Shown here piece by piece: positions 2,203 through 16,417 of a stretch of DNA of 21,814 bases. The notes under the pieces were generated by a model that worked only from the letters and a program-made list of their open reading frames with translations, was not told where the DNA came from and did no database searches. This stretch comes from Bacteroidota bacterium (GTDB taxonomy: Bacteria > Bacteroidota > Bacteroidia > NORP154). A program made the translations under genes and the position numbers. Positions within the stretch are counted from its first letter, which is position 1. The number at the start of each line of letters is the position of its first letter. The DNA is taken from NCBI GenBank assembly GCA_002401055.1, contig NVRZ01000032.1, forward strand, positions 1 through 21,814. The letters are read 5' to 3'.

Positions 2203-2465
2203 AAATTTCGGTAAACGCAAAGCACCTACTCTGGCTTCAATTATCGAGAACCAGATTTAAGAACTGCGTATTTTACAAAAATATGCGTCTGTTCTCCTAT
2301 TTAGCACGTATGGGTCAGCAAAGTTATAAACATCAAATTGTTAATGCCATCTGGGCAATAGCAAGTCATCATTTGCACATTCTATACAATATTAATAGTG
2401 AAAGTTCGTTTTTTAGCTGCTTTGTAGCATATACCAAACCGCGCAATCTTCCTTATCTGCTTAAC
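2203..2465. promoter_or_regulatory. Divergent intergenic region between glucosaminidase gene and porU
   Basis: About 260 nt between the two proposed start codons. An open frame continues upstream of the porU start to an ATG at 2283, but its product lacks any signal-peptide logic (a 61-residue basic and hydrophobic stretch before a good signal peptide), so I treat this stretch as non-coding. One exact TAnnTTTG match lies on the minus strand at 2326-2319 (TAACTTTG) and would face the glucosaminidase gene, but it has no -33 partner at normal spacing. I see no clear promoter element for porU. Confidence 0.3.
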
Positions 2466-5400
2466 ATGATATATCGAACTGGTCTTATAACATTGGTGTT
2501 ATTAGCAACATCAATCACCCTGTTTTCTCAATTGCCTTCCTCACCTCAAGTGCGCGCAGTTTCCGGAACAAAAGCACTTTCACAACACATTAATCTTCCT
2601 GAGAATGATGACAAAACTACACTAGCCTGGGGCGAACCAAGAACCGCGAATTATACGGATACCTACTCCGAAATGTATCTTTATTTTGATGGTGCTAAAT
2701 ACGATCGTCAACCCCATCAAATTCCTGTATTTACAAACCGAACAAAATTAGCGTCAAATGTGACTGGTGTAACGGCCACTCTCACAAATATGGAGTTCGA
2801 GGATTTTAATTTAAATGACTTGAACAGTATAAAAGGCCTGAAAGAAATTAGAGAAGAAATTGCAGTGGAAGCATTGGTTACTTACTATAAAAAACTTCCT
2901 CACGCCAGGGTTTCATTTGTTCCACTTCGCAGAAACCCAACTACAGGAACAATACAAAAACTCATTCGCTTTAACCTTGAAGTAACCCCGACATCTTTTA
3001 CCAGTACAACCAATAAAAAGAAAAAAACTCAGTACGCTGCCAATTCGGTTTTAGAAACAGGAGACTGGTATAAGATTAGTGTTACACAGGATGGAATGTA
3101 TAAACTCTCATACACCTTCTTGAATAGCCTTGGTATTGATGTGGACAATATCAACCCTCAAAATCTGCGGATTTATGGAAATGGTGGCGGAATGTTGCCG
3201 TATAGTAATTCCACTTTTCGATATGATGACTTAGAAGAAAATGCAATTGAAGTTGTTGGTGAAGGGGATGGAACATTTGACGGAAGTGATTACATCCTCT
3301 TTTACGGTGAAGGCCCTACCTCATGGAGCTATTCCTCTTCAGATTCCCGGTACAAACACCAATTGAATTTATACTCTGAAAAAACTTTCTATTTCATTAC
3401 TACTGATGGCGGCACGGGGTCTCCTAAACGAATTAATCCTCAGGCATCAGAATCCTCCTTTAATACCTCGGTTACAAATTTTGATGCATATGCCATGCAT
3501 GAAGCGGAAATTGAAAACCTGATAATATCAGGAAGACAGTGGTATGGTGAAAAATTTGATATTAAAACCTCCTATAGTTTTCCTTTCAGCTTTCCAAATA
3601 TATCGAGTAGTGTAACAGTTGAAATATCGGTGCTCGGCAGGGCCATTGAACCCGCAACGGGAGGTTTTTCGGCAACAGGTACCGGCGGCGTCTCGTTGTC
3701 ATCACTAGACCTATTTACCGGTAACGTAAGTGGTGATTACTTAAATTCTTTCGGCGTTCCGAAAACAGACGCTACATCATTTTCGTCAGGTGATGCGGTT
3801 ACCGTTACAGTGAGTTATAGCAAAAGCGAACCATCCTCGGTGGGCTGGCTGAATTATATTGAGGTTAATGCTCGGAGGGAGTTAAAAATGAGCGGAAACC
3901 AAATGGTATTTCGCGACATGCAGTCAGTCGTTATTGGTAATATCTCTAAGTTTTCAATCAGCAATGCTACATCATCGTTGAGAGTATGGGAAGTCACAAA
4001 TTCCACCAATTGTAGCGAAGTGACCGATACACTTATTGGTACGACACTGGAATTTAATCTAATCACCGATTCGCTAAGACATTTTGTTGCCTTTAACGGA
4101 AGCACCTTCCTAAGCGCGACAGCTGTAGGCTCTATAGCCAACCAGGATATTCATGGAACAATAGGACAGCCAGAGTTTGTTATTGTAACAAATCCAGCCT
4201 TTAAAGAGCAGGCTGATAATCTTGCTTCGTTTCATCGGAACCTAGAAGGAGACAACATGACGGTAGCAGTAGTAACAAACAAGGATGTATACAATGAATT
4301 TTCGTCAGGAGCCCAAGACATCACCGCAATAAAAGATCTTATGCGTATGCTGTATAACCGTGCTTCCAGCACAGCTGAATTGCCAAAATATCTGCTCTTA
4401 TTTGGTGATGGTTCTTATGATAATCTAAACCGGCTTAGCAACAATACCAACTATATCCCCACCTATCAATCGGCCAATTCCTTTGAGCCCGTGTGGTCTT
4501 ATGTTTCGGATGATTATTTTGGACTTCTGGACGACAGTGAAAGTGATGGGGCATATGAGAGCATTGACATTGGCATTGGAAGGCTTCCTGTTAAATCCGC
4601 ATCGGAGGCGGATGCAATGATTTACAAGATCACGAACTACAATTCACCCAATACTATGCGTGACTGGAGGAACCTTCTTTGTTTCATTGCGGATGACGAG
4701 GACAATAATATTCATATAAATTCAACTGATGGTATCGCAAAATATATTGATACTGCTTACTGTGAATATAATATTGATAAAATATATCTCGACGCTTATC
4801 AGCAAACTTCAACTGCGGGCGGTCAGCGTTACCCGGAAGCCAATGTGGCTCTTAACAGAAGGGTTGAGAAGGGAGCATTGATAATTAATTACACCGGCCA
4901 TGGCGGGGAGCTAGGATGGGCCCATGAAAGAATTTTGGGAAACAAAGACATCAATGCCTGGGCAAATTTTAACAGCCTACCATTGTTTACAACAGCTACG
5001 TGCGAATTTAGCAGGTTCGATGATCCAGCAAGAACAGCAGCTGGTGAATACGTATATCTAAACCGAAACGGTGGCGGAATTGCATTGCTTACCACGGTTC
5101 GTCTGGTATTCTCCGGCGCAAATAAAATGCTCACAGACAGCTTTTATCATACCGTTTTCGTTCCTATCAATGATAAGATGCCGCGCTTAGGTGATGTAGT
5201 GATGCTAACAAAAAACAAAATTAACAATGGCCCCAATGCCAGAAAATACTGCTTGCTGGGGGATCCCGCATTGCGCCTTGCTTATCCAGTACATAGCGTG
5301 CTTACTGATTCTATTGATGGCCAGCCCGTTGCGGGCGCCTCAGACACTCTAAACGCCTTGAGCCTGGTAACAATCAGTGGTCACATCAACGATAAAGCCG

Positions 5401-6386
5401 GAGGAAAGTTTACAACGTTTAACGGTACCGTGTATCCGACGGTTTATGATAAGGCTGCGACAATTACAACATTAAAAAACGATCCGAGCAGCAAAATCAG
5501 GAACTTCGAGCTTCAGAAAAGTATCTTGTTTAGAGGAAAAGCTACTGTTACCAATGGTGAGTTTAGCTATTCATTTATTGTTCCAAAAGACATTGCCTAC
5601 CAAAATGATTTTGGCCGTATTAGCTATTACGCAGAAAATGGCGAAACCGATGCAACTGGTTGCTATGAAGACTTTATCATTGGTGGGTCTTCGTCCAATA
5701 TCGCAGTGGATAACACCGGACCAAAAGTGGATTTGTACATGAACGACACAAGCTTCGTATTTGGCGGAATAACCAATGAGAACTCAACTTTGCTGGCATT
5801 CATTTTTGATGAACATGGAATTAACACCAGTGGAAACGGGATCGGGCATGACCTTGTGGCCGTACTAGATGGTGAATCAAATAATCCAATTGTGCTTAAT
5901 GACGATTATATTGCTGATCGAGATACCTATAAAAGCGGCTCAATTATGTATGACTTTTCAGACCTGGAAGTTGGCAACCATACCTTGAGCCTAAAGGTGT
6001 GGGATGTATACAACAATTCCACAGAAACCTTTACAGAATTTGTTGTCGCCTATTCATCTGAGTTGGCCCTGGCCCATGTGCTAAATTATCCAAACCCATT
6101 TACAACTTATACGGAGTTTTGGTTTGAACACAATAGACCGGGACAAAGTCTGGATGTACAAATACAAATATTTACAATATCCGGAAGGCTGATTAAAACC
6201 ATAAACACAAATGTGTTCACGCTTGGATTTCGCCCAGACCCTAAAGTCTTTACTGATCTTCAGTGGAATGGTAAAGATGACTTTGGTGATAATATTGGCA
6301 AGGGCGTCTATGTATACCATCTGAAAGTAAAGGCAGAAGATGGGTCCTATGCGAATAAGTTTGAAAAACTGGTTATCCTCAATTAA
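2466..6386 (+). CDS. porU: PorU, type IX secretion sortase (C25 cysteine peptidase)
   Basis: Surface sortase of the T9SS. It removes the C-terminal sorting domain from cargo proteins and attaches them to a lipopolysaccharide anchor (known for the Porphyromonas family member). From the ATG at 2466 it has 1306 residues, in the usual size range. It begins with the signal peptide MIYRTGLITLVLLATSITLF and a long beta-rich N-terminal region. The gingipain-like C25 domain lies at about residues 567-945. The catalytic pair is visible as His812 in YTGHGGELGW and Cys846 in TTATCEFSRFDDP. The end (about 1202-1306, NYPNPF, then FGDNIGKGVYVYHLKV) is itself a T9SS-type C-terminal domain, as in other PorU proteins, where it is retained. 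The open frame extends to 2283, but I reject that start. porV follows after a 119-nt gap. Confidence 0.93.
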   Translation: MIYRTGLITLVLLATSITLFSQLPSSPQVRAVSGTKALSQHINLPENDDKTTLAWGEPRTANYTDTYSEMYLYFDGAKYDRQPHQIPVFTNRTKLASNVTGVTATLTNMEFEDFNLNDLNSIKGLKEIREEIAVEALVTYYKKLPHARVSFVPLRRNPTTGTIQKLIRFNLEVTPTSFTSTTNKKKKTQYAANSVLETGDWYKISVTQDGMYKLSYTFLNSLGIDVDNINPQNLRIYGNGGGMLPYSNSTFRYDDLEENAIEVVGEGDGTFDGSDYILFYGEGPTSWSYSSSDSRYKHQLNLYSEKTFYFITTDGGTGSPKRINPQASESSFNTSVTNFDAYAMHEAEIENLIISGRQWYGEKFDIKTSYSFPFSFPNISSSVTVEISVLGRAIEPATGGFSATGTGGVSLSSLDLFTGNVSGDYLNSFGVPKTDATSFSSGDAVTVTVSYSKSEPSSVGWLNYIEVNARRELKMSGNQMVFRDMQSVVIGNISKFSISNATSSLRVWEVTNSTNCSEVTDTLIGTTLEFNLITDSLRHFVAFNGSTFLSATAVGSIANQDIHGTIGQPEFVIVTNPAFKEQADNLASFHRNLEGDNMTVAVVTNKDVYNEFSSGAQDITAIKDLMRMLYNRASSTAELPKYLLLFGDGSYDNLNRLSNNTNYIPTYQSANSFEPVWSYVSDDYFGLLDDSESDGAYESIDIGIGRLPVKSASEADAMIYKITNYNSPNTMRDWRNLLCFIADDEDNNIHINSTDGIAKYIDTAYCEYNIDKIYLDAYQQTSTAGGQRYPEANVALNRRVEKGALIINYTGHGGELGWAHERILGNKDINAWANFNSLPLFTTATCEFSRFDDPARTAAGEYVYLNRNGGGIALLTTVRLVFSGANKMLTDSFYHTVFVPINDKMPRLGDVVMLTKNKINNGPNARKYCLLGDPALRLAYPVHSVLTDSIDGQPVAGASDTLNALSLVTISGHINDKAGGKFTTFNGTVYPTVYDKAATITTLKNDPSSKIRNFELQKSILFRGKATVTNGEFSYSFIVPKDIAYQNDFGRISYYAENGETDATGCYEDFIIGGSSSNIAVDNTGPKVDLYMNDTSFVFGGITNENSTLLAFIFDEHGINTSGNGIGHDLVAVLDGESNNPIVLNDDYIADRDTYKSGSIMYDFSDLEVGNHTLSLKVWDVYNNSTETFTEFVVAYSSELALAHVLNYPNPFTTYTEFWFEHNRPGQSLDVQIQIFTISGRLIKTINTNVFTLGFRPDPKVFTDLQWNGKDDFGDNIGKGVYVYHLKVKAEDGSYANKFEKLVILN

Positions 6387-6473
6387 ACAATAAATAATAA
6401 CTCGGTTCGTTTTAACAGAAAACTCCAGAGATAGCGCCCTGGAACCATTCGGAATAAACCACGTATAAATTCA

Positions 6474-6481
6474 TATCTTTG
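6474..6481 (+). promoter_or_regulatory. Putative Bacteroidota -7 promoter element upstream of porV
   Basis: TATCTTTG is an exact match to the Bacteroidota -7 consensus TAnnTTTG and lies 24 nt before the porV ATG, giving a short leader. A weak -33 candidate (TTCG, 6448-6451) lies 22 nt upstream. It suggests porV can be transcribed independently of porU across the 119-nt gap. The evidence is positional and by consensus only. Confidence 0.4.
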
Positions 6482-6505
6482 TATAGGCAGTCCTGATTAT
6501 AATTG

Positions 6506-7795
6506 ATGATGAGAATACTTAGGAAAAACATTTACTGGCAGATGGGCACTCTGGTGTTGGCGGCGTTGGTTTTTACCATCAACTTGAGTCATGCACAAAG
6601 CAAATTGACCACAAATGAGCTTAACGGCGGTACAGTTAATACCATCACTACTGCCGTACCTTTGTTATTGATATCCCCGGATGCGCGTTCAGGAGCTATG
6701 GGAGATGCTGGAGTAGCATCCAAACCCGATGCGAATTCCACCCACTGGAATCCGGCAAAATTTGCATTTATAGAAGATGATATGGGATTCTCTGTATCAT
6801 ACACGCCCTGGCTTCGAGCCTTGGTGCCAGACATAAACCTGGCGTACCTTTCAGGTTACAAAAGAATTGATAAAAACCAGACAATTGGTGTGTCGCTCTT
6901 GTACTTTTCTCTGGGAAATATAATTTTTACAAATGTTGTCGGTGAAGTAACCGGTGAATTTAATCCAAATGAATTTTCTATTGACGGAACCTATGCCCGA
7001 AAGCTTTCGGATAATTTTTCAGGTGGAATCGCTTTGAGATATATTTATTCCAATTTAACTGGTGGCTATTATATTGAAAGCGCTGGCCAATCCAAAGCAG
7101 GTCAGTCGGTTGCAGCCGACATCTCCGTTTACTATCAGAATGAAGTAGAACTTGGTGACAAATCTGGAGAATATGCTTTGGGATTGAATATTTCAAACAT
7201 AGGATCGAAGATTTCCTATACGGAAACTGCTGACAGAGATTTTATTCCAATCAATTTGAGATTAGGGGCGCGATTGTCTGTTGATATTGATGAGTATAAC
7301 TCAATTTCACTCATGGCCGACGTAAATAAGCTATTGGTTCCTACTCCTCCCATATATGAGCTAGACACTGCTGGAAATCCCGTTCAGGACGCATCGGGGA
7401 ATAAAGTAATTCTGTATGGTAAGGACCCGAACAGGTCGGTAGTAAGTGGAATGGTTGGCTCTTTTAGTGATGCACCGGGAGTAGCAAATAGCAGTGGAGA
7501 TAGAAGCGTTGGGAAAGAGGAGTTAAGAGAACTTACTTACTCTATTGGGTTGGAATATTGGTATTCTGGACAGTTTGCAGTTAGGGCAGGATACTTTTAT
7601 GAGCACGCAACAAAGGGAAACAGGAAGTTCTTCACTCTGGGCGCCGGTTTAAAATACAACGTATTTGGCATCGATTTTGCCTATCTAATTCCTACCGAAG
7701 CCAAACATCCCCTAGAAAACACGCTCCGTTTTACGTTAGTTTTCGATTTTGAAGGGTTGAAAGAACAAAAAGCCGAGATCCCTCCAAAGTCTTAG
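6506..7795 (+). CDS. porV: PorV (LptO), T9SS outer-membrane shuttle protein
   Basis: Outer-membrane beta-barrel of the FadL type. It collects T9SS cargo from the SprA translocon and delivers it to PorU (known for the family). The product is 429 residues with a signal peptide ending near SHA-QS (about residue 31). The family signature follows at about residues 50-75: LLLISPDARSGAMGDAGVA and then STHWNPAKFAF. The rest alternates as expected for barrel strands, and it ends in a beta-strand (LRFTLVFDFEG) plus a short tail. Tandem ATGs occur at 6506 and 6509, and either may be used; an in-frame TTG at 6503 is unlikely. It sits directly after porU, the usual arrangement. Confidence 0.93.
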   Translation: MMRILRKNIYWQMGTLVLAALVFTINLSHAQSKLTTNELNGGTVNTITTAVPLLLISPDARSGAMGDAGVASKPDANSTHWNPAKFAFIEDDMGFSVSYTPWLRALVPDINLAYLSGYKRIDKNQTIGVSLLYFSLGNIIFTNVVGEVTGEFNPNEFSIDGTYARKLSDNFSGGIALRYIYSNLTGGYYIESAGQSKAGQSVAADISVYYQNEVELGDKSGEYALGLNISNIGSKISYTETADRDFIPINLRLGARLSVDIDEYNSISLMADVNKLLVPTPPIYELDTAGNPVQDASGNKVILYGKDPNRSVVSGMVGSFSDAPGVANSSGDRSVGKEELRELTYSIGLEYWYSGQFAVRAGYFYEHATKGNRKFFTLGAGLKYNVFGIDFAYLIPTEAKHPLENTLRFTLVFDFEGLKEQKAEIPPKS

Positions 7796-7859: not shown

Positions 7860-8345
7860 ATGGATATACGAGTAGGTTTTGGGTTTGATGTTCATCAGCT
7901 ACATGAAGGGCAGGATTTTATCATTGGTGGTGTTCATATAGAACACAGCAAAGGTGCTGTTGGCCACTCGGATGCTGATGTGCTCATTCATGCTATATGC
8001 GATGCCCTATTGGGCGCAGCAAACCTTAGGGACATAGGAACACACTTCCCGGATAGTGATGGTTCGTATGAAAACATTGACAGTTCTATACTGTTAAACA
8101 ATGTGATTGGATTACTGACCAAGCAAGGATATTCTATTTGCAATGTCGATTCAACCGTTTGTTTAGAGGCTCCAAAGATCAAATCGTACATTGATGACAT
8201 GCAAGAGCATTTGGCCGAAATAATGAAACTCGAAGTGGATCGAATTTCAATTAAGGCCACTACCAGTGAAAAAATGGGATTCGTTGGGCGCGAAGAGGGC
8301 GTCACCGCTTATGCTACTGTTCTGATTCAGAAGGCTTCTTCTTAA
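7860..8345 (+). CDS. ispF: 2-C-methyl-D-erythritol 2,4-cyclodiphosphate synthase
   Basis: Cytoplasmic enzyme of the MEP pathway of isoprenoid precursor synthesis. It cyclises CDP-methylerythritol 2-phosphate to MEcPP with release of CMP. It is 161 residues, the normal length. The metal ligands are visible as Asp10 and His12 (GFDVHQ) and His44 (DADVLIHA). The conserved C-terminal active-site segment is TTSEKMGFVGREEG. It starts 64 nt after porV, same strand, and may be co-transcribed. Its last 32 nt overlap the 3' end of the DUF2490 gene on the other strand. Confidence 0.96.
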   Translation: MDIRVGFGFDVHQLHEGQDFIIGGVHIEHSKGAVGHSDADVLIHAICDALLGAANLRDIGTHFPDSDGSYENIDSSILLNNVIGLLTKQGYSICNVDSTVCLEAPKIKSYIDDMQEHLAEIMKLEVDRISIKATTSEKMGFVGREEGVTAYATVLIQKASS

Positions 8346-9015
8346 TCAATCGGCCCTTTAATTTGTACGCATAGCCCAATCCAACGATATATGAATAGGT
8401 GGGGTTCTTCACATTGAACTGTCGCTGAATCCTATAAAAGAATGCTGCCTCATGGCGCTTACTCAACTCTAAGTCACAACCTAATGTATATCGAACTTTG
8501 TCAAATTGCTTACCCTTAATGTCTAGATAAACTTCAGATGAAAAAAATGGTCTGAACATTTTATCCAGATCCAGTTTTACAGTTAGTTTATTCCGATCAT
8601 AGTAGTCCACTCTGGGCCCTTTGTTTCGCTGGCCATACTCCACTTGTATTCGCGCCCGATAGAGAACTATTATTGGTTTCGCCTTGTAGCGAACCCGAAT
8701 ATCGCCGTGAAAACGATTTTCTACTCTATAGGTACCATCTAATCGTTGAATATTTTTGAATCTATAATAGCCAGATACCTTAAAGTACTTGTTCAGTCTG
8801 TAAGCAGTCCCTAATTCGGAAAAAAAGTTTTTTACAGAGGTTATATTATCATTCATTCGAACTTGCTCTTCGAAGTGCAGGCTTAATTTCTTTGTAATTT
8901 TTTTGCTGATTCCAGCGCCAGTCCAAAGCTCTGCATCATTCACCTGCGCGGTTCCAATGCCATACGTCCCAACAACTAGATAAACTAAATAAAATCGCCT
9001 TATGAACCGCTTCAT
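8314..9015 (-). CDS. DUF2490-family outer-membrane protein
   Basis: 233 residues with an N-terminal signal peptide (cleavage near GTAQ-VN, about residue 24). The rest is a run of amphipathic beta-strands of the DUF2490 type: WTGAGISKKITKKLSLHFEEQ, YRLNKYFKVSGYYRFK and YSYIVGLGYAYKLKG. The family is predicted to form small outer-membrane barrels of unknown function. It is the last gene of the six-gene minus-strand operon, 20 nt after the CotH gene. The basic C-terminal tail (RLIKKKPSESEQ) is encoded opposite the end of ispF. A role as outer-membrane partner of the CotH/polyphosphate system is an inference from context only. Confidence 0.8.
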   Translation of the reverse strand: MKRFIRRFYLVYLVVGTYGIGTAQVNDAELWTGAGISKKITKKLSLHFEEQVRMNDNITSVKNFFSELGTAYRLNKYFKVSGYYRFKNIQRLDGTYRVENRFHGDIRVRYKAKPIIVLYRARIQVEYGQRNKGPRVDYYDRNKLTVKLDLDKMFRPFFSSEVYLDIKGKQFDKVRYTLGCDLELSKRHEAAFFYRIQRQFNVKNPTYSYIVGLGYAYKLKGRLIKKKPSESEQ

Positions 9016-9035
9016 CTCCTGGTATTAAACCTATA

Positions 9036-12000
9036 CTATTTTACCCCTGAACCTAAGTAAGATATCACCGAATACGTGGTTGATGTAGCTGTAATCAGCT
9101 GGCAGTAATAGATCCCTGCGCTAAGATTATTTGGCTGAAAAGGTATATAATGATCCCCTTCATTCATCGTCCCTTCTGCTATTGTCATCATCTCCTTACC
9201 CTGTGTATCGATTATCTTGAGCAATACCCGCTCACTCTCATCAAGAGAAATCCTAATTGTTGTAGAATAATCAAAGGGATTTGGATATGCTTCTAAAAAC
9301 ACAGAGCTGTTATTGCCAGACTGCTGTTCCAAGCCAACCATGCAAGGGGCAAATCCTACCCCCGGAGATCCTCCAAAACAACCCGCGAACCAATTGTAAT
9401 AACTATTAAGATCATTGTATCTATCCAGTAATTCCAACGTTGATCCAAACCCATTTGCACCAGAGGGCCATAGTGAATTGCCCGTGAAACTAAGAGATAA
9501 ATAAAGAAGACCAGATGGATCATATAGCTTCAAGCTCTCACCATTGCTGCCAATACCAAAGTTGAATGGCCCAACATAATTGTTTACTGTGGGATTGTAA
9601 ATTTTAAACTTCGCCGTATCTTGGACAAGCACGATGTACTCATCTTGAATTAAAAAGGTACTGTCTGGTATTGTATAAGAATTGTTGTTTAAATCCTTCA
9701 GCTTCCAACCAGAAATATCAACATCAATAGTTCCATAGTTATGCAGCTCTATCCAATCTCCCATATCCCAATTCACGATGGATTTATAATTTATTTCACT
9801 TATTGTTATTCTATTTGTATCCGGCTCCCCGAAGAAATATGCGGTAAACACCTCATTGGTATCTATATTCAGTGTAATAGAAGAATTATAGTCCGGACTG
9901 GGAATCAGATTCAACGATTGCCAGAATGAAAACTCATACCCAGGATTTGGATTCGCGGTAATCGTTACGGGAACACCATCAAAGTAAATTCCAGCCCAAG
10001 GAAATGAATCAGGTATTATTGTACTTATCTTAATCGTGCCAGCCCCTTCGGGATATACCGATAGTGTTACAGACACTTGTTTACTAAGACCGAATTCCTG
10101 CTCAATATGATCCCTAGCAGGAGAAGGACGCCCATTGATAAAACCTATCAAGCTTGCCTCGACATTGACCTGATACCAGTTATTAAAATCTCCACCCCAT
10201 TTTTCAATGTGCCGTGGCATCTCTCCAATTATAGAATCCCTATAAGAATATGCAAGATTGCTCAAGGTCCTTGCATTAAAAACAGTATTAATCAAATCGG
10301 CGTATCGATTGATAAAATAGTTTCTAAACGTCGTGTTAAGCAACAGCGAATTCAACATTGCCGCGTGCGCAGTATTGGATTGTGTTGTAACTCTATTCAG
10401 ATCATTATCATTTGAGGTGCCACCAAAACAAAGACCAAAATCCATGTCAGTGACAATATATCTCCATTTAGACCCTGGACTTTGCGATTTCCAGTATTTA
10501 ATGTTGTTCTGAGGCCAGTCCCAGTTCACGTAATACGTCTGCGTGATAAAGTGGTCACAAAAGTTTTCTATGTCAAGCTGATTTGTAACTACATCATAGT
10601 TCGCAGTGATTGCCATATTATTTGAAATAATAAAATTGGCCAAATTGATAAAGTCGGTGTTTGTGCCTTCCATAATAGCGCCGTCAAACTGCAGGATATC
10701 TACACTATCTGGATTTACACCAAAGTTTTCGGCCAGGTAATATTTGCTGATTTTCTCTCTGATGTTTTGAATTCCCCAAAACTCCCCGTTTAAATAAACA
10801 ACGGCTGGTACATAGTCCTGAATATCATTGAAGGTGTTATGAACCGCCTTGTGCATCAGCGCATCGCGGAAAAACGTCCCATTTTGGACTGTTTCATTAC
10901 CAGATGTTCTGATTATAAATCTTTTAAAACTGTAAATCTCCTTGTCAGGGAATAGTTGATAATCCAAAGTACTATTGCCGTATCGCCCTTTTGCGAGAAT
11001 ACGCAATGACTTCTGTGGTTGTGACCTGGACCAGCCACCGTGAATTTTCATTCCGAAATCCTGATCAAATTGCAAGACCGCATCGGCACTATAGTATTCA
11101 AGGTGAATTGGAATCTCCCAATTTTGCCAGAAATTAGCTCCAAAGAAAGGAACACCAGGGTCAGCATTGGGGCCCAGCACATAGATCCCAGTGTTAAAAT
11201 CCCATAGGTTTGCCGGATCCGTAGTTATTGACAGAACAGGTAGTGTCGAATTATCATCTATAAAATAAGTTTTGGTAACCACTTCGCTGGGTAAAAACCC
11301 AGCGGCAAAAGCTCTGGCCCGTATTACCATATTTGAGTCAATTGTAATCGGCGCACTATAAACAGAATCCGTTAATGTCGGAATGCTTCCATCCATGGTT
11401 ATTCTAATCACAGAACCCACAAACAAATCCGATATTGTAAGCGATTGATTAACCATATAAAATCCTCCCGCCAATGAAAACACCGGATCGGTAACATAGC
11501 CAAGATACGATACGGAGCCATTATTAGTTAAGTCAGGCGTAGGGGTACCAAATAAGCCATTGTTCGCACTACCATCGGGGAATCTTCCATATGAATGGTC
11601 TACCTGTAAATACGGGTACTGCACCGTATCAATGAGCACCTTAGCCGGATTTCTTAGATAAACCGTTTCCCCATTACCGCTTAGCTTAAAATTTGTATGA
11701 AGGAATGACTGTCCCGGATTAAACCAAATGGGTAATGAATCATAAAAAGTAGAGTTCTCCTTGATCCCCACGGACAAAAACGGCCTTGCTGTCAGGTCCG
11801 AAGAGAATGTATTTACATTGTGAACTTGAACAGTTAACACATTGTTGCCGATTACCAAAACTGACTTGAGTTGCGCTTCGGTAATTTTAAACTCGTCAGG
11901 CAATTGACCTTGATATAACAAAGCTTCGTGCTCTACGTAAGCCAATGCATCGTAAGGCGTAATGGTGCCGTTAATTCCAACATTCGCTCTAACCATTTCC

Positions 12001-12593
12001 ACGCCATTTAAATACGCCACAAAAGAATCGTCAAAATCCATATGGAAAACCGCATTGCTTAAGGTGGACGTATCGATAATACTAAACTCATGACGGATAT
12101 AAACTGATGACAATGGAGGACTAATAATTGTTCCATCATCGCCGTCACCATAACCTATTCCTCCTACACCCAATAACCAAGCTGAGTCATCAAAACCTAA
12201 GTCCGTCCAGGTAGTGTCTACTGGTGCAGTCGGCACTAAATACCTCCAGCCATAACTATCCTTCACAATCGATTCCCAGTGATTTATACTCGTCTTCCTG
12301 TCTTTTCCTGAGGCAAAAACAGTCAAGTAAGATTGCGGTTGAATCGTGACTGAGGGAAATGTCCAGAATGCAGCGCTATCAATATTATCGCTTATCGAAT
12401 AGCCATTAAGATCAACTGCCGCTGAGCCGGCATTGTATAACTCAATAAAATCAGGGTAATCTCCATCCTCATCGGCTGTAATATTGGCGTTTCTTGAGCA
12501 TACTTCATTTATGGTAATCTGTGAATAAACACTCGGTGTACAGAGCATCAGGTATATAACCATGATCGAAACAATACACTTTACCTGCTTCAT
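9036..12593 (-). CDS. T9SS-exported CotH-family kinase with lamin-tail domains
   Basis: Large secreted protein of 1185 residues (numbering from the ATG at 12593). The CotH domain lies at about 446-836. It shows MKIHGGWSRSQPQKSLRI (candidate nucleotide-binding Lys528), VYLNGEFWGIQNIREKI, YYVNWDWPQNN and TDMDFGLCFGG (candidate catalytic or metal Asp716 and Asp718). Bacillus CotH is an atypical kinase that phosphorylates spore-coat proteins; activity here is inferred. Other parts, in order: signal peptide (to about 25), a lamin-tail domain split by a beta-sandwich insert (27-101 and 291-357, insert about 103-278), a chitobiase-C-like module (about 367-445), an InlB-B-repeat-like module (about 840-920), a second lamin-tail domain (about 929-1078) and a T9SS type A sorting domain (about 1099-1181, AYPNPFDYST). 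The ATG at 12593 overlaps the upstream stop as ATGA, so I prefer it to the ATG at 12605 and the TTG at 12620. Confidence 0.9.
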   Translation of the reverse strand: MKQVKCIVSIMVIYLMLCTPSVYSQITINEVCSRNANITADEDGDYPDFIELYNAGSAAVDLNGYSISDNIDSAAFWTFPSVTIQPQSYLTVFASGKDRKTSINHWESIVKDSYGWRYLVPTAPVDTTWTDLGFDDSAWLLGVGGIGYGDGDDGTIISPPLSSVYIRHEFSIIDTSTLSNAVFHMDFDDSFVAYLNGVEMVRANVGINGTITPYDALAYVEHEALLYQGQLPDEFKITEAQLKSVLVIGNNVLTVQVHNVNTFSSDLTARPFLSVGIKENSTFYDSLPIWFNPGQSFLHTNFKLSGNGETVYLRNPAKVLIDTVQYPYLQVDHSYGRFPDGSANNGLFGTPTPDLTNNGSVSYLGYVTDPVFSLAGGFYMVNQSLTISDLFVGSVIRITMDGSIPTLTDSVYSAPITIDSNMVIRARAFAAGFLPSEVVTKTYFIDDNSTLPVLSITTDPANLWDFNTGIYVLGPNADPGVPFFGANFWQNWEIPIHLEYYSADAVLQFDQDFGMKIHGGWSRSQPQKSLRILAKGRYGNSTLDYQLFPDKEIYSFKRFIIRTSGNETVQNGTFFRDALMHKAVHNTFNDIQDYVPAVVYLNGEFWGIQNIREKISKYYLAENFGVNPDSVDILQFDGAIMEGTNTDFINLANFIISNNMAITANYDVVTNQLDIENFCDHFITQTYYVNWDWPQNNIKYWKSQSPGSKWRYIVTDMDFGLCFGGTSNDNDLNRVTTQSNTAHAAMLNSLLLNTTFRNYFINRYADLINTVFNARTLSNLAYSYRDSIIGEMPRHIEKWGGDFNNWYQVNVEASLIGFINGRPSPARDHIEQEFGLSKQVSVTLSVYPEGAGTIKISTIIPDSFPWAGIYFDGVPVTITANPNPGYEFSFWQSLNLIPSPDYNSSITLNIDTNEVFTAYFFGEPDTNRITISEINYKSIVNWDMGDWIELHNYGTIDVDISGWKLKDLNNNSYTIPDSTFLIQDEYIVLVQDTAKFKIYNPTVNNYVGPFNFGIGSNGESLKLYDPSGLLYLSLSFTGNSLWPSGANGFGSTLELLDRYNDLNSYYNWFAGCFGGSPGVGFAPCMVGLEQQSGNNSSVFLEAYPNPFDYSTTIRISLDESERVLLKIIDTQGKEMMTIAEGTMNEGDHYIPFQPNNLSAGIYYCQLITATSTTYSVISYLGSGVK

Positions 12594-14230
12594 TGCTTTA
12601 TCCATTTCTTTTGATAACAATTACCATTCACGCAAAGCTCAATAAAGTAAATTCCCGATGACCCGCCTTCGATTACGTCGGCTAGTTGTATCGTGTGTCC
12701 TCCGGAATTGTACCCTTGATCTTTTTCAAGGATGCGAACCCTTCCAAGCAAATCAATTAGCCTAAGAGATATTAGCGAGAGCGCCTGAAGCTCGAATGAT
12801 ATCGCAGTTTCCTCGCGGCCTGGATTTGGAAAAATTACAAAATTCATTTCCTCACCCTCATATTCGAAAATGCCAGTCATCACATTTATCATAATCTCAA
12901 AAGTGTCAATCGAACACACGTTAGATGCTATCAAGCGAACAACCTTGGTCCCCAGAGTAGAATAAAAATGTCTTGGGTGCTTTTCTGTGCTTGTCGTTGA
13001 GTCGCCAAATTCCCAATAATATGAGTCGGCGTCAGTTGATAGGTTTACAAATAATGTAGAATCAGCATTCGTAACGCTTCCAGTCCAAAAGCTGGCTATA
13101 ACATCCTGATAAACCGAAACCTCAACTGTGGCCAGTTCCCAGCAAAACTGTGATTCATTGATGTAAACACTATATACCGTTGCGGTATCTGGGCTCACTG
13201 TTATGGAGGCCGTCATCTCACCTGTCGACCACAAATATGAAACGCCTCCGGTTACAGATAAAGTAACTGATCCACCTTGGCAGACATAAATATCGGGGGT
13301 AATCGTGTATGAAATAGCGGAACAATAGACACAACTGCTATCACTCGTATTCGCCAAAGGGTTGTAGTTGATCGCTGTCGTATCCATGCAACCATAATAT
13401 ACTGGTGGTGGTGGTGGGATATTTAATATCTCGGTGACGTAGTAATATGTCGGACCAGTTGTGTCTATAATGGGCTCGGTAATCTCCTTTACGAGCGCGT
13501 GTCTTATTCCCTCTGAATAATACAAGTAGTACTCTATAGTGTCGAGGTTGGCTCCATTAAACGTGCCGTTAATGAAAGTACTGTCGTACTTATACTCTAC
13601 CACGTGTACTCTGAGTACACTATCATAAGAGCCCAGTCCAGTAAGCATATCTCCCCAGCCGTCAGCATCAATTTTCTTATACAGATGGTTCTCGGCTTTA
13701 TAAAGAGTTGGACCAAACCAAATTTCTAGCTCTGTAAGTGCATAAGTACTGTCCGAGTATCCATAGGTATATTGATTGCTTAACAACGTATCCTCATTGG
13801 GCGGATTCAAATGAAAGAACAACGTGTCTATTGTTGCCGTATCTAGCAAATACCCCACCCAAACCATGCCATTCTGCCAAAACCCCGATACGTCAGAAGC
13901 ATAATATGTATACTGGTCATAACCTATCTGACCCATTGTAGGATAATACCTGAATAGGCTGGCCGTTGGGTACTCACTTGTGAATGGTCCTGAAGAAGCG
14001 TCTAGATAATCAATTAGCTGACTTCCGTACGTGAATCCACCTGTAAAATCATAGGATTGTGCAGGGCCAGATGCTGAAATGGGCGGCGTGTTGATAAAGG
14101 CAACATTACTCAGAAGGAAGTTCGTTCCCACAATCGGAAACTCACTACTGTCTAGGCTCACTTGCGCCTGAGAACGCCAACAAAACATGCTAAGTATGAA
14201 TACTATTACTAGTGTTTTGTTCACCTTCAT
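12590..14230 (-). CDS. T9SS cargo protein with Ig-like and PKD modules, no enzyme domain seen
   Basis: 546 residues. A signal peptide (to about residue 22, RSQAQ) is followed by an unrecognised N-terminal region (23-270) rich in Tyr, Ser, Thr and Asp. Next come a PPPPP linker (272-276) and a cysteine motif GCMDTTAINYN...DSSCVYC (280-303) of a type common in Bacteroidota surface proteins. An Ig-like module (about 305-375, CQGGSVTLSVTGG...YLWSTGE), a PKD domain (about 379-450, YYWEFGDSTTS) and a T9SS type A sorting domain (about 463-546, VIFPNPGREETAISFEL) follow. It begins 5 nt after DUF4956, and its stop codon overlaps the CotH start (ATGA), so the two are translationally coupled. It could be the substrate, scaffold or surface partner of the CotH protein. 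The function is not known from sequence. Confidence 0.88.
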   Translation of the reverse strand: MKVNKTLVIVFILSMFCWRSQAQVSLDSSEFPIVGTNFLLSNVAFINTPPISASGPAQSYDFTGGFTYGSQLIDYLDASSGPFTSEYPTASLFRYYPTMGQIGYDQYTYYASDVSGFWQNGMVWVGYLLDTATIDTLFFHLNPPNEDTLLSNQYTYGYSDSTYALTELEIWFGPTLYKAENHLYKKIDADGWGDMLTGLGSYDSVLRVHVVEYKYDSTFINGTFNGANLDTIEYYLYYSEGIRHALVKEITEPIIDTTGPTYYYVTEILNIPPPPPVYYGCMDTTAINYNPLANTSDSSCVYCSAISYTITPDIYVCQGGSVTLSVTGGVSYLWSTGEMTASITVSPDTATVYSVYINESQFCWELATVEVSVYQDVIASFWTGSVTNADSTLFVNLSTDADSYYWEFGDSTTSTEKHPRHFYSTLGTKVVRLIASNVCSIDTFEIMINVMTGIFEYEGEEMNFVIFPNPGREETAISFELQALSLISLRLIDLLGRVRILEKDQGYNSGGHTIQLADVIEGGSSGIYFIELCVNGNCYQKKWIKQ

Positions 14231-14235
14231 TTCTG

Positions 14236-14919
14236 CTAGTCTTCCGTTCTTTGTTCTCTTTCTTCCTGAATTGAAGATTCTGTTCCTTCATCGGCATAAT
14301 AGAACACCCGTACTCTTGCCGTGTCCCTTAAAAAATCAATTCTTCCAATCTCGGTCCTGTGGATATTTAATCCAGTTCTTTCCCGCAGGTCTTCTATCAG
14401 TTTTTGCTGGTTTTCAGGTTTAATAAGTTCAATCTTTTCAAGAATTACGGTTTGCCGCGACTCATGTTTGGTAAACCATACTTTCTCCAACCCATATGTT
14501 ATTGAGGCGATAATAATATTCGTAAATACTAGCTCCATATAGGTAACCTTCTTATTTGCCAACCCATTTATGGCCGAAATACCAATTACAACAAATAGGT
14601 AGGTCATCTCTCTAATTGGAATTGGATCCGTCCGATACCGGATAATTCCGAAAATTGCGAACATACCAAGGGCGAAGCCAAGACCAAGCTTTACATTTGA
14701 CAGAAGCTGACATAGAAAGAACACAATAACGCTGAACAGCATGTACGTAAAGAGATACTCCTTGCGTTTTGTAATCGGGTAATAGATATATCGTACGATC
14801 CAAACCGTGATAATCATATTAAAAGAAAACCTAAGCACCAGCTCAAGAAAATCTTCGGCATCAACAAGTTTAACACCAAATATTTTTGTCAGTTCTATAA
14901 AATCAAGCGCCCACTCCAT
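14236..14919 (-). CDS. DUF4956 multi-spanning inner-membrane protein
   Basis: 227 residues with four or five predicted membrane segments (about 28-47, 55-74, 78-94, 104-120 and 127-145). A soluble cytoplasmic C-terminal domain (about 155-210) looks like a small alpha/beta fold (VILEKIELIKPENQQKLIEDL, then RVRVFYYA). The DUF4956 hallmark FAIFGIIRYRTDPIPIREMT is at 88-107, with charged Arg and Asp residues inside or beside the membrane. Its first 17 nt overlap the VTC gene. By analogy with the yeast VTC complex, where membrane subunits carry polyphosphate across the vacuolar membrane, I infer a channel or anchor role for polyphosphate made by its partner. The family has no proven function that I know of. 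Confidence 0.88.
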   Translation of the reverse strand: MEWALDFIELTKIFGVKLVDAEDFLELVLRFSFNMIITVWIVRYIYYPITKRKEYLFTYMLFSVIVFFLCQLLSNVKLGLGFALGMFAIFGIIRYRTDPIPIREMTYLFVVIGISAINGLANKKVTYMELVFTNIIIASITYGLEKVWFTKHESRQTVILEKIELIKPENQQKLIEDLRERTGLNIHRTEIGRIDFLRDTARVRVFYYADEGTESSIQEEREQRTED

Positions 14920-15691
14920 ATCTCAATTTGTTAATCGTTATTATTTTGGGTTTAAACCTATTGTATTTAATCTCTTCATTAAACAGGTTACTCTTCACAT
15001 CCGAGTTCATCAAAACAATACCAATACAATATTTACTAATCCGCATCGGCTTTATTCTAAATTCCTTCATGGTTCTTATAAATGAAGAGCGCACATTGTA
15101 TTTTTCTTGTTTTACCTCAGCAATTATCAACTCTGAAACTGATGACACCTGATCATTCAACTCAAATTTTAAATCCAAGTCAAGCGTAACCCTTTCTTTA
15201 TCCCTCAAGCTCACCAGAGTAATACGCTTAAACTCACTGGCTAGTTTCGCATGTAGCTCGGTTGACGACAATGGGAAATATTTTGCTAAAAACTCAACGG
15301 ACCTATCAGAAAAATCAGGGCGTATGTCCGTTCTCTTGGTTCTTTTCTTGTCCGTTTTTCCCTTATTATTCTTGAATTTAACTTCCAAATAACACAATCC
15401 GGTATCTACATATTTTCGATACCTCACCTTGTGCCGGTTCAGTTTCCCATTATGGTGTTGGGTGTATAGTTTCAATTCCTCGGTATCAAAATACAGTGAC
15501 CGGTATTGGCTGAACTTCCTCCCATCTATTTCCAGCACCCTATAACTCTGCGAAAGGTTCCTTAACACATCGGACAATAAATCCGAGTTGAAAACAAACT
15601 TGGTATCCGTCCTGTTTAGCAGTTTTACGCTGTCCATTTCTTTGAGAGAAATAGGACTAAATCCACTTCGTATAACTTCCTCCAGGCCCAC
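14903..15691 (-). CDS. VTC-domain polyphosphate polymerase
   Basis: 262 residues forming essentially one VTC domain (triphosphate tunnel superfamily). In yeast Vtc4 this domain makes polyphosphate from ATP and binds it in a basic tunnel. Candidate tunnel residues are visible in family order: NRTDTKF (26-32), NRHKVRYRKY (85-94), the LEVKFKNNKGKTDKKR basic run (102-117), ASEFKRITLV (151-160), DKERVTLDLDLKF (164-176), the acidic metal-binding candidate IIAEVKQEK (189-197) and KPMRISKYCIGI (214-225). There is no membrane segment or SPX domain, so it should be cytoplasmic and need a membrane partner; DUF4956, which overlaps it by 17 nt, fits. It starts with GTG immediately after the stop of the lipoprotein gene. 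A later ATG at 15637 would remove the conserved FSPISLKEM segment. Confidence 0.9.
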   Translation of the reverse strand: MGLEEVIRSGFSPISLKEMDSVKLLNRTDTKFVFNSDLLSDVLRNLSQSYRVLEIDGRKFSQYRSLYFDTEELKLYTQHHNGKLNRHKVRYRKYVDTGLCYLEVKFKNNKGKTDKKRTKRTDIRPDFSDRSVEFLAKYFPLSSTELHAKLASEFKRITLVSLRDKERVTLDLDLKFELNDQVSSVSELIIAEVKQEKYNVRSSFIRTMKEFRIKPMRISKYCIGIVLMNSDVKSNLFNEEIKYNRFKPKIITINKLRYGVGA

Positions 15692-16417
15692 TTATCTTTT
15701 TTCTATTTCCAGGTTTGATAATTGAATGTCTTCACCCTCAATAGTTATTTCAGTTTGCAGCTCTTTCGCTTCGGTACCGCTGGTGCAAGTTAAACAATCC
15801 GAAAACGCATATATTTTGTACGAGCCTTCAATCAAATCGCTGAACTGAAAAATCCCACCCTCTCCAGATTTAGTCTTGTCGAAATAGCTTTGGTCATTGT
15901 CATAAATTATATAAACATTTTCATCCGGCTTTGGATATTGAGCAATTAAGGTTGGCCCAGAATACTCGTACATATATACGATTCCAGAAACCGTACCGCT
16001 CCCATCGTTGAGATCAATGTTCTTCACAACTTCCAGGTCTACGGCTTCAACCAATTCCTTTTTATCTTTTATTTCCACTTTTATTTCAACCGACTCTATT
16101 CCTGACGGACAGGTGTTACAATCCGAATACGCGAAAATTGTGTAGTCTCCTTTTCTCAGGTACTGAAACTTATAGCTCCCTTCATCATCAGAGTCCATCT
16201 GATCATCATATACAGTGTTGTCTCCATATATAATGAACAAATCCTCCTTCCTGGCCTCTTCCTTTTTAAGAAATTTGCCATTTGGATCATAAAGCATGGT
16301 ATACAACTTTCCTTCTATTGTTGCCTTGCCTCCTTCGCCCTCTTCTTTTTTGCATGCGCTGAATATGACCATAATCATGGCTATAAAAATATACAGGCTT
16401 AATTTATTCACTTTCAT
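15692..16417 (-). CDS. Lipoprotein with two tandem CxxC-bearing repeats
   Basis: First gene of the minus-strand operon. From the ATG at 16417 it has 241 residues, with a lipoprotein signal and lipobox FSAC (Cys22). The following KKEEGEGG resembles the acidic export signal that sends Bacteroidota lipoproteins to the outer surface. The mature part is two copies of a beta-rich domain of about 100 residues, similar to carboxypeptidase-regulatory or Cna-B-like folds. Repeat 1 (about 31-130) ends with YTIFAYSDCNTCPSG and repeat 2 (about 140-241) with YKIYAFSDCLTCTSG, so each has one CxxC (Cys100/103 and Cys208/211). The specific function is unknown. It could bind metal or polyphosphate, or act as a receptor for the secreted partners; these are guesses. 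The open frame to 16507 begins with GTG and would bury the signal peptide, so I reject that start. Confidence 0.82.
   Translation of the reverse strand: MKVNKLSLYIFIAMIMVIFSACKKEEGEGGKATIEGKLYTMLYDPNGKFLKKEEARKEDLFIIYGDNTVYDDQMDSDDEGSYKFQYLRKGDYTIFAYSDCNTCPSGIESVEIKVEIKDKKELVEAVDLEVVKNIDLNDGSGTVSGIVYMYEYSGPTLIAQYPKPDENVYIIYDNDQSYFDKTKSGEGGIFQFSDLIEGSYKIYAFSDCLTCTSGTEAKELQTEITIEGEDIQLSNLEIEKR

Follow-up and report, generated by a model that had tools for sequence, protein, structure and literature searches.

The 21,814-nucleotide stretch analysed here (below, the window) comprises positions 1 to 21,814 of contig NVRZ01000032.1 of a Bacteroidota bacterium (assembly GCA_002401055.1). On its minus strand, between positions 8314 and 16417, it carries six close-packed open reading frames (ORFs) for a lipoprotein, a VTC-domain protein, a DUF4956 membrane protein, a cargo protein of the type IX secretion system (T9SS), a CotH kinase with a T9SS tail, and a DUF2490 outer-membrane protein. 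An earlier note on this DNA had seen in the six genes one linked set; the observation is right, and the linkage is strong. In relatives the partners tend to stay together, and the genes therefore probably work as one system. We tentatively take the operon, with a confidence somewhat short of even, for the Bacteroidota version of a VTC-DUF4956-CotH module, in which polyphosphate would be made, exported via DUF4956, and used at the surface with CotH.

Linkage of VTC, DUF4956 and CotH in genomes and loci

A search with Pfam models through 149 genomes, drawn evenly from the class, gave matches to VTC in 69 genomes, DUF4956 in 81, CotH in 85, DUF2490 in 118, PPK1 in 118, and PorV in 141. CotH is present in 68 of the 69 VTC-positive genomes against 17 of the 80 VTC-negative ones, DUF4956 in 69/69 against 12/80, and DUF2490 in 66/69 against 52/80, while PPK1, the control polyphosphate gene, is unlinked (53/69 against 65/80, p 0.55). 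As a control for ancestry, the labels were shuffled within the 15 families having both VTC states (55 genomes). The link persists there for CotH (32/33 VTC-positive and 7/22 VTC-negative genomes, permutation p 1e-4) and for DUF4956 (33/33 and 5/22, p 5e-5), with no such link for PPK1 (27/33 and 18/22, p 0.43); these p values are inexact because families are a coarse correction for ancestry. Among T9SS-positive genomes only, CotH occurs in 67/67 VTC-positive and 15/74 VTC-negative genomes, and the linkage is therefore not explained by T9SS carriage. The sole VTC-positive genome of the 69 without CotH (G073) is also without PorV, the T9SS marker. The phylum draw (198 genomes, some of them shared with the class draw) gives CotH in 37/37 VTC-positive and 44/161 VTC-negative genomes, and the named controls C. 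glutamicum and M. acetivorans have genome-wide matches to VTC, DUF4956 and CotH.

The neighbourhood search that the earlier note had proposed was run on 76 VTC loci (the window and 75 around VTC matches), scanned with profiles grown from the window proteins. The partners recur within 9 kb of VTC: DUF4956 in 72 loci, DUF2490 in 48, the lipoprotein in 45, and CotH in 39, with all four together in 27; these counts are lower bounds, because contig ends cut some of the loci. The 39 loci with CotH compare with 2.1 expected by chance, an expectation that assumes independent CotH copies, whose independence is not full. DUF4956 lies directly after VTC in 65 loci and, with longest-ORF starts, overlaps it in 55 of them. 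A second set came from a contig scan for DUF4956; DUF4956 was called in 77 of its best 80 loci (all except L146, L147 and L149), and these 77, many on short contigs, hold VTC in 71, DUF2490 in 45, the lipoprotein in 29, and CotH in 16. Puteibacter caeruleilacunae JC036 (L169) encodes the lipoprotein, VTC, DUF4956, DUF2490 and a CotH with a T9SS tail in a single run. Among 37 further loci from 33 phylum genomes, DUF4956 was found in 37 and CotH in 14.

The idea of an envelope-spanning linked set thus stands in its linkage, genome-wide and within mixed families, and in a clustering above chance, but not as a fixed set of six. The exact order of the window is rare, with 3 of the 76 VTC loci (the window, L097, and L094 with its DUF2490 in two ORFs). 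The common order in the class, incomplete in many loci, is CotH with other T9SS cargo, lipoprotein, a Lys-rich secreted protein of ~190 aa, VTC, DUF4956, DUF2490. The cargo of the window, which had been counted as an integral part, was rejected as a general component: its family is small, with three relatives among the loci (L094, L097, L057), each beside a CotH of 1187-1192 aa. In L057 (genome G059, another family) the relatives of the cargo and the long CotH adjoin 5' of a lipoprotein-o194-VTC-DUF4956-DUF2490 row, and this position, different from that in the window, suggests that cargo and CotH act as a pair that was attached twice to one operon.

Contiguous DUF4956-VTC-CotH runs are found in L040, L061, L064 and L079. 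These four and L058 belong to a second locus class, in which DUF4956-VTC-CotH is followed by a further CotH downstream; in L064, genes for Wzy_C and MBOAT lie between the first and the second CotH. A VTC-DUF4956 fusion considered in L069 was rejected, as the domains sit in separate ORFs. The two DUF2490 ORFs of L094 (120 and 82 aa) and the DUF4956 of L086, broken by one TAG, may each reflect assembly error or decay. L118, recorded as Euryarchaeota archaeon, has a VTC-DUF4956 locus of Bacteroidota type close to a large protein with a T9SS tail, and its bin is probably mislabelled.

Directly upstream of VTC, many loci encode a secreted-looking protein of 157-205 aa with Y-N/D-x-G repeats and 14-19% Lys (L035, L041, L043, L044, L049, L050, L054, L057, L060, L062, L063, L067, L070, L073, L075, L077, L088 and L090); the window is without it. 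Its charge suggests a polyanion binder. In loci of the phylum draw (L199, L206-L209, L211, L213, L214, L219-L221), the place directly upstream of VTC is taken not by the lipoprotein but by a gene of 354-359 aa.

Catalytic and conserved residues

The profile of the VTC family has Vtc4 (3g3q, 1.5e-13) as its best match among solved structures. The window residues K31, R90, R92, E192, S219 and K220 align on Vtc4 K200, R264, R266, E426, S457 and K458, respectively, as counted along the printed 8i6v alignment; K200, S457 and K458 we take to be active-site residues. All six window residues are invariant in 39/39 sequences (window included); a check of 16 charged or polar positions showed 15 without any variation in the 39 sequences and one kept in 38. 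In Vtc4, R264/R266 are required for polyphosphate synthesis (PMC8749416), and the structure of the complex was solved with the mutant R264A/R266A/E426N (PMC9911596); these and the other papers are cited here from excerpts of their text.

The window CotH alone gives no match to solved structures at E ≤ 0.1 and the family profile is needed: built from 38 CotH domains, it matches B. cereus CotH (5jd9, 2.6e-34). Asp692 and Asp716, numbered from ATG 12593, align with the Asp pair of 5jd9, which from its equal 23-residue spacing would correspond to D228/D251 named for B. subtilis CotH (PMC7821199). The catalytic Asp is kept in 32 of the 38 aligned domains (48 domains were found). It is missing from six, namely the second CotH of L040, L058, L061 and L064 and the CotH of L051 and L093; the second CotH of L079 was left out of this alignment. 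The window VTC and CotH proteins keep their catalytic residues, and the VTC protein is predicted to be a cytoplasmic polyphosphate polymerase. The window VTC (262 aa) has no SPX or membrane domain, VTC being its sole Pfam match at E ≤ 0.01.

The AlphaFold2 model of DUF4956 (pLDDT 86.5, pTM 0.77) has predicted membrane helices and a C-terminal alpha/beta domain, and R94 and R96 of its RYRT motif are invariant (alignments A2, A4 and A6). The best match of the DUF4956 profile to solved structures (E 0.073) was judged to be chance. MgtC is not among the matches of the window DUF4956, nor among the 25 families listed, of 43, for 31 members (E ≤ 10), and a structural comparison gave no clear match either; in the excerpted text of PMC12345266, SIR_1592 is stated to have an MgtC-type membrane domain. 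In DUF2490, R85 and R141 never vary across the window protein and 38 relatives from VTC/DUF4956 loci, and R53 and R175 hardly do. DUF2490 is listed as a putative porin family of no established function (PMC4827864); a cationic pore would be our guess.

Genes, junctions and neighbourhood of the operon

The family names given earlier agree with the Pfam and NCBIfam matches (Table 1), and the six minus-strand genes and their five junctions were found as described when the ORFs and junctions were read from the sequence.

Table 1. Genes of the operon, in order of transcription, and the catalytic domain of CotH
Feature	Positions	Strand	Basis
Lipoprotein, 241 aa from ATG 16417	15692..16417	-	lipobox ending FSAC, then KKEEGEGG
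VTC-domain protein, 262 aa, GTG start	14903..15691	-	Pfam VTC 3.4e-24
DUF4956 membrane protein, 227 aa	14236..14919	-	Pfam 7.3e-55
T9SS cargo, 546 aa, PKD domain and C-terminal sorting domain	12590..14230	-	TIGR04183 3.5e-9
CotH kinase with T9SS export tail, 1185 aa from ATG 12593	9036..12593	-	Pfam CotH 1.2e-31
CotH catalytic domain; candidate catalytic Asp692, metal-binding Asp716	10128..11048	-	Pfam match span
DUF2490 outer-membrane protein, 233 aa	8314..9015	-	Pfam 1.3e-23

The lipoprotein has two transthyretin-like repeats with an SDC-x-x-C motif in each; its Pfam and NCBIfam matches are weak and transthyretin/prealbumin-like only, and most of its relatives in VTC loci have ~130 aa and a single repeat. 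The nearest named relatives of the DUF4956 protein come from Flavobacteriales and other Bacteroidota bins. The cargo is composed of 19% Ser+Thr, and the CotH protein is built of LTD, CHB_HEX/Fn3-assoc, CotH, InlB-like and LTD domains followed by the sorting tail. Both tails are of type A (TIGR04183 36.5 bits for the cargo and 31.6 bits for CotH, cut-off 23; the Pfam tail model gives 25.7 on the cargo, just below its cut-off of 27), and PorU and PorV are encoded in the same window, as expected for T9SS type A cargo.

The VTC gene follows the lipoprotein gene at 0 nt (TAA, then GTG), provided that this GTG is its start, and is overlapped over 17 nt by DUF4956 (DUF4956 ATG 14919, VTC stop 14903). 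The gap between DUF4956 and cargo is 5 nt, and that between CotH and DUF2490 is 20 nt. Cargo and CotH overlap by 4 nt (ATGA) if CotH starts at ATG 12593; the alternative starts, an in-frame ATG at 12605 and the TTG at 12620 given by the ORF tool, lengthen this overlap. The congener L097 has junctions of 0, 17-nt overlap, 8, ATGA and 20 nt, and the ATGA junction is found again in L094; such recurrence in relatives exceeds chance. Promoter-like sites are fewer than in shuffled sequences (19 observed, 27.5 in shuffles), and terminator-like sites are not clearly more (9 against 6.4, sd 2.5). The Bacteroidetes-type promoter motif gave 2 matches (1.17 expected), none of them inside the operon. The window is contig 25 of a 2.49-Mb genome bin that is 60% complete.

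On the downstream side, the 3' end of the DUF2490 gene overlaps tail to tail by 32 nt (8314-8345) with that of a plus-strand gene of 161 aa, presumably ispF. The operon also adjoins porV and a large T9SS-tail gene (porU in the window; 2283-7795, plus strand), which converge on it. The same neighbourhood is seen in L035, L044, L045, L047, L056, L068, L070, L072 and L090, from several families, and porV/porU are long-lived neighbours rather than members of the operon.

Known systems, proposed mechanism and alternatives

The VTC-DUF4956-CotH set itself is already known, and the Bacteroidota version is a variant of it; the suggestion that the system had gone undescribed does not hold, since the trio is in print for Gram-positive Pel loci (PMC7112168, PMC12345266). 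In Pel loci of streptococci, clostridia and bifidobacteria, cotH and genes for a poly-phosphate polymerase, DUF4956 and DUF4832 are accessory genes (PMC7112168), and in S. intermedius deletion of the DUF4956 or the CotH gene alters the level of Pel and lowers aggregation (PMC12345266). As in the window, the three genes are clustered there and CotH is predicted to be secreted; the window differs in the cargo gene between DUF4956 and CotH, the two membranes, the T9SS tails, the added lipoprotein and DUF2490, and the lack of pel genes. None of the Pel families was found by Pfam among the ten window proteins scanned, and PelG is above its cut-off in 0/149 class genomes, with one weak sub-threshold match (G108); the window's own genome is, as said, incomplete. 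According to the excerpted text of PMC12345266, its authors fail to find the VTC-DUF4956-CotH synteny outside the Pel locus, and the contiguous runs in the PelG-negative class draw are a direct counter-example to this claim.

Three other systems bear likeness to the operon. The eukaryotic VTC complex (Vtc1/2/3/4), which couples polyphosphate synthesis and translocation (PMC9911596), shares the VTC/TTM domain, the catalytic residues of Vtc4, and a membrane partner; in the window there is no SPX domain, and the membrane part is supplied by DUF4956, which is encoded separately and belongs to a different Pfam family. The CotH-CotB-CotG spore-coat module of Bacillus (PMC7821199) likewise has the CotH domain and the Asp pair, while T9SS export, the extra LTD and Fn3-like domains, and the VTC partner are features of the window. 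There, too, a partner is encoded beside the kinase, cotG being a neighbour of cotH in Bacillus. In the NELoc-2 locus of C. perfringens, the VTC and CotH genes are close together (PMC2879425); it is a Gram-positive locus to which the excerpted source gives no function, and its neighbouring gene labelled tubulin/FtsZ probably encodes DUF4956. In B. thetaiotaomicron, BT3498-99 (DUF4956, DUF2490) appear in a table of the iron-dependent stimulon (PMC10434189), which may hint at a module responding to iron. Among the open-licence papers listed by our searches, no title, abstract opening or excerpt was found to describe VTC with CotH in Bacteroidota or polyphosphate as the donor for CotH.

The products are predicted to range from the cytoplasm to the cell surface, and we infer from them, as the earlier note did, a phosphate or phosphorylation system. 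In the mechanism that we favour, the VTC protein, as predicted from its residues, would use ATP to polymerise polyphosphate on the cytoplasmic side of the inner membrane. DUF4956, its putative membrane partner, would hand the chain to the periplasm, as the membrane portion of the VTC complex does in yeast. In the outer envelope, the polyanion may then be retained or relayed by the lipoprotein and the barrel of DUF2490, and the T9SS would export the CotH kinase together with the partner cargo, for both of which the sorting tails predict a location on the cell surface. There, phosphorylation or polyphosphate-bearing material could strengthen adhesion, the matrix or cation binding. Export of polyphosphate and its purpose are what we infer from this arrangement.

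Several results weigh against such an export module. CotH lies within 9 kb of VTC in only 39 of the 76 VTC loci. Genomes G013, G057 and G094 (f14) have DUF4956 and CotH with no VTC match, and Bacteroides ihuae matches VTC and DUF4956 but not CotH. L056, from the family of the window, consists of VTC-DUF4956-DUF2490 with no CotH, cargo or lipoprotein alongside; its genome has nine CotH matches elsewhere. L109 (G028) has the lipoprotein, a protein of ~161 aa, DUF4956 and DUF2490 in a row with no VTC, and is perhaps a natural VTC deletion; this locus and the f14 genomes may mean either that the other genes do not depend on VTC or that they draw on polyphosphate made by PPK1. Fold comparison gave no match linking DUF4956 to a channel. 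For the polymerase deletion in S. intermedius, no effect like that of the other two deletions is reported in the excerpted text of PMC12345266. These contrary results are compatible with a polymerase that helps the system but can be substituted, by PPK1 for instance, or with a link looser than export.

A possible but rather doubtful alternative makes CotH, the cargo and DUF2490 the builders or modifiers of a surface polymer, whose synthesis VTC and DUF4956 regulate from inside via the level of polyphosphate or ATP, with no export. The changes in Pel and aggregation in the S. intermedius deletions (PMC12345266) speak for it, some class loci set DUF4956-VTC-CotH beside Wzy_C and MBOAT (L064), and sensing would be a fitting role for the alpha/beta domain modelled at the C-terminus of DUF4956; Pfam, however, recognised no polymer synthase among the six proteins, and PelG is absent above cut-off from the class draw. 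It is unlikely, in our view, that the surface CotH, a kinase for which no extracellular ATP is expected, takes its phosphoryl groups from exported polyphosphate. The near-obligate occurrence of CotH with VTC and the T9SS tail of the window CotH are consistent with this, and the source of ATP for the spore-coat CotH is called an unanswered question in PMC7821199. The studied CotH uses ATP in vitro (PMC7821199), on the other hand, 17 VTC-negative genomes also have CotH, and our literature search found no test of the donor. Slightly less likely still, in our estimate, is the fuller version in which a counterpart of the vacuolar VTC exports polyphosphate via DUF4956 and DUF2490, and polyphosphate, not ATP, powers CotH or is covalently attached by it. 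Loose co-inheritance through a shared lifestyle of T9SS-bearing, surface-living Bacteroidota, with clustering by operon hitch-hiking, we consider very improbable: such genomes commonly carry CotH and the T9SS, and porU/porV often lie next to the cluster, but the link of VTC with CotH holds among T9SS-positive genomes and inside families, where PPK1 is without it.

Since the VTC-DUF4956-CotH trio also exists away from Pel loci, its general function cannot be one that is specific to Pel. New here is a version of the trio with the T9SS and an outer membrane and with recurrent partners. VTC is almost never without CotH in these draws, which offers a candidate answer to the question of the donor for extracellular kinases; if CotH is indeed powered by polyphosphate, extracellular protein phosphorylation would run on a shipped inorganic polymer.

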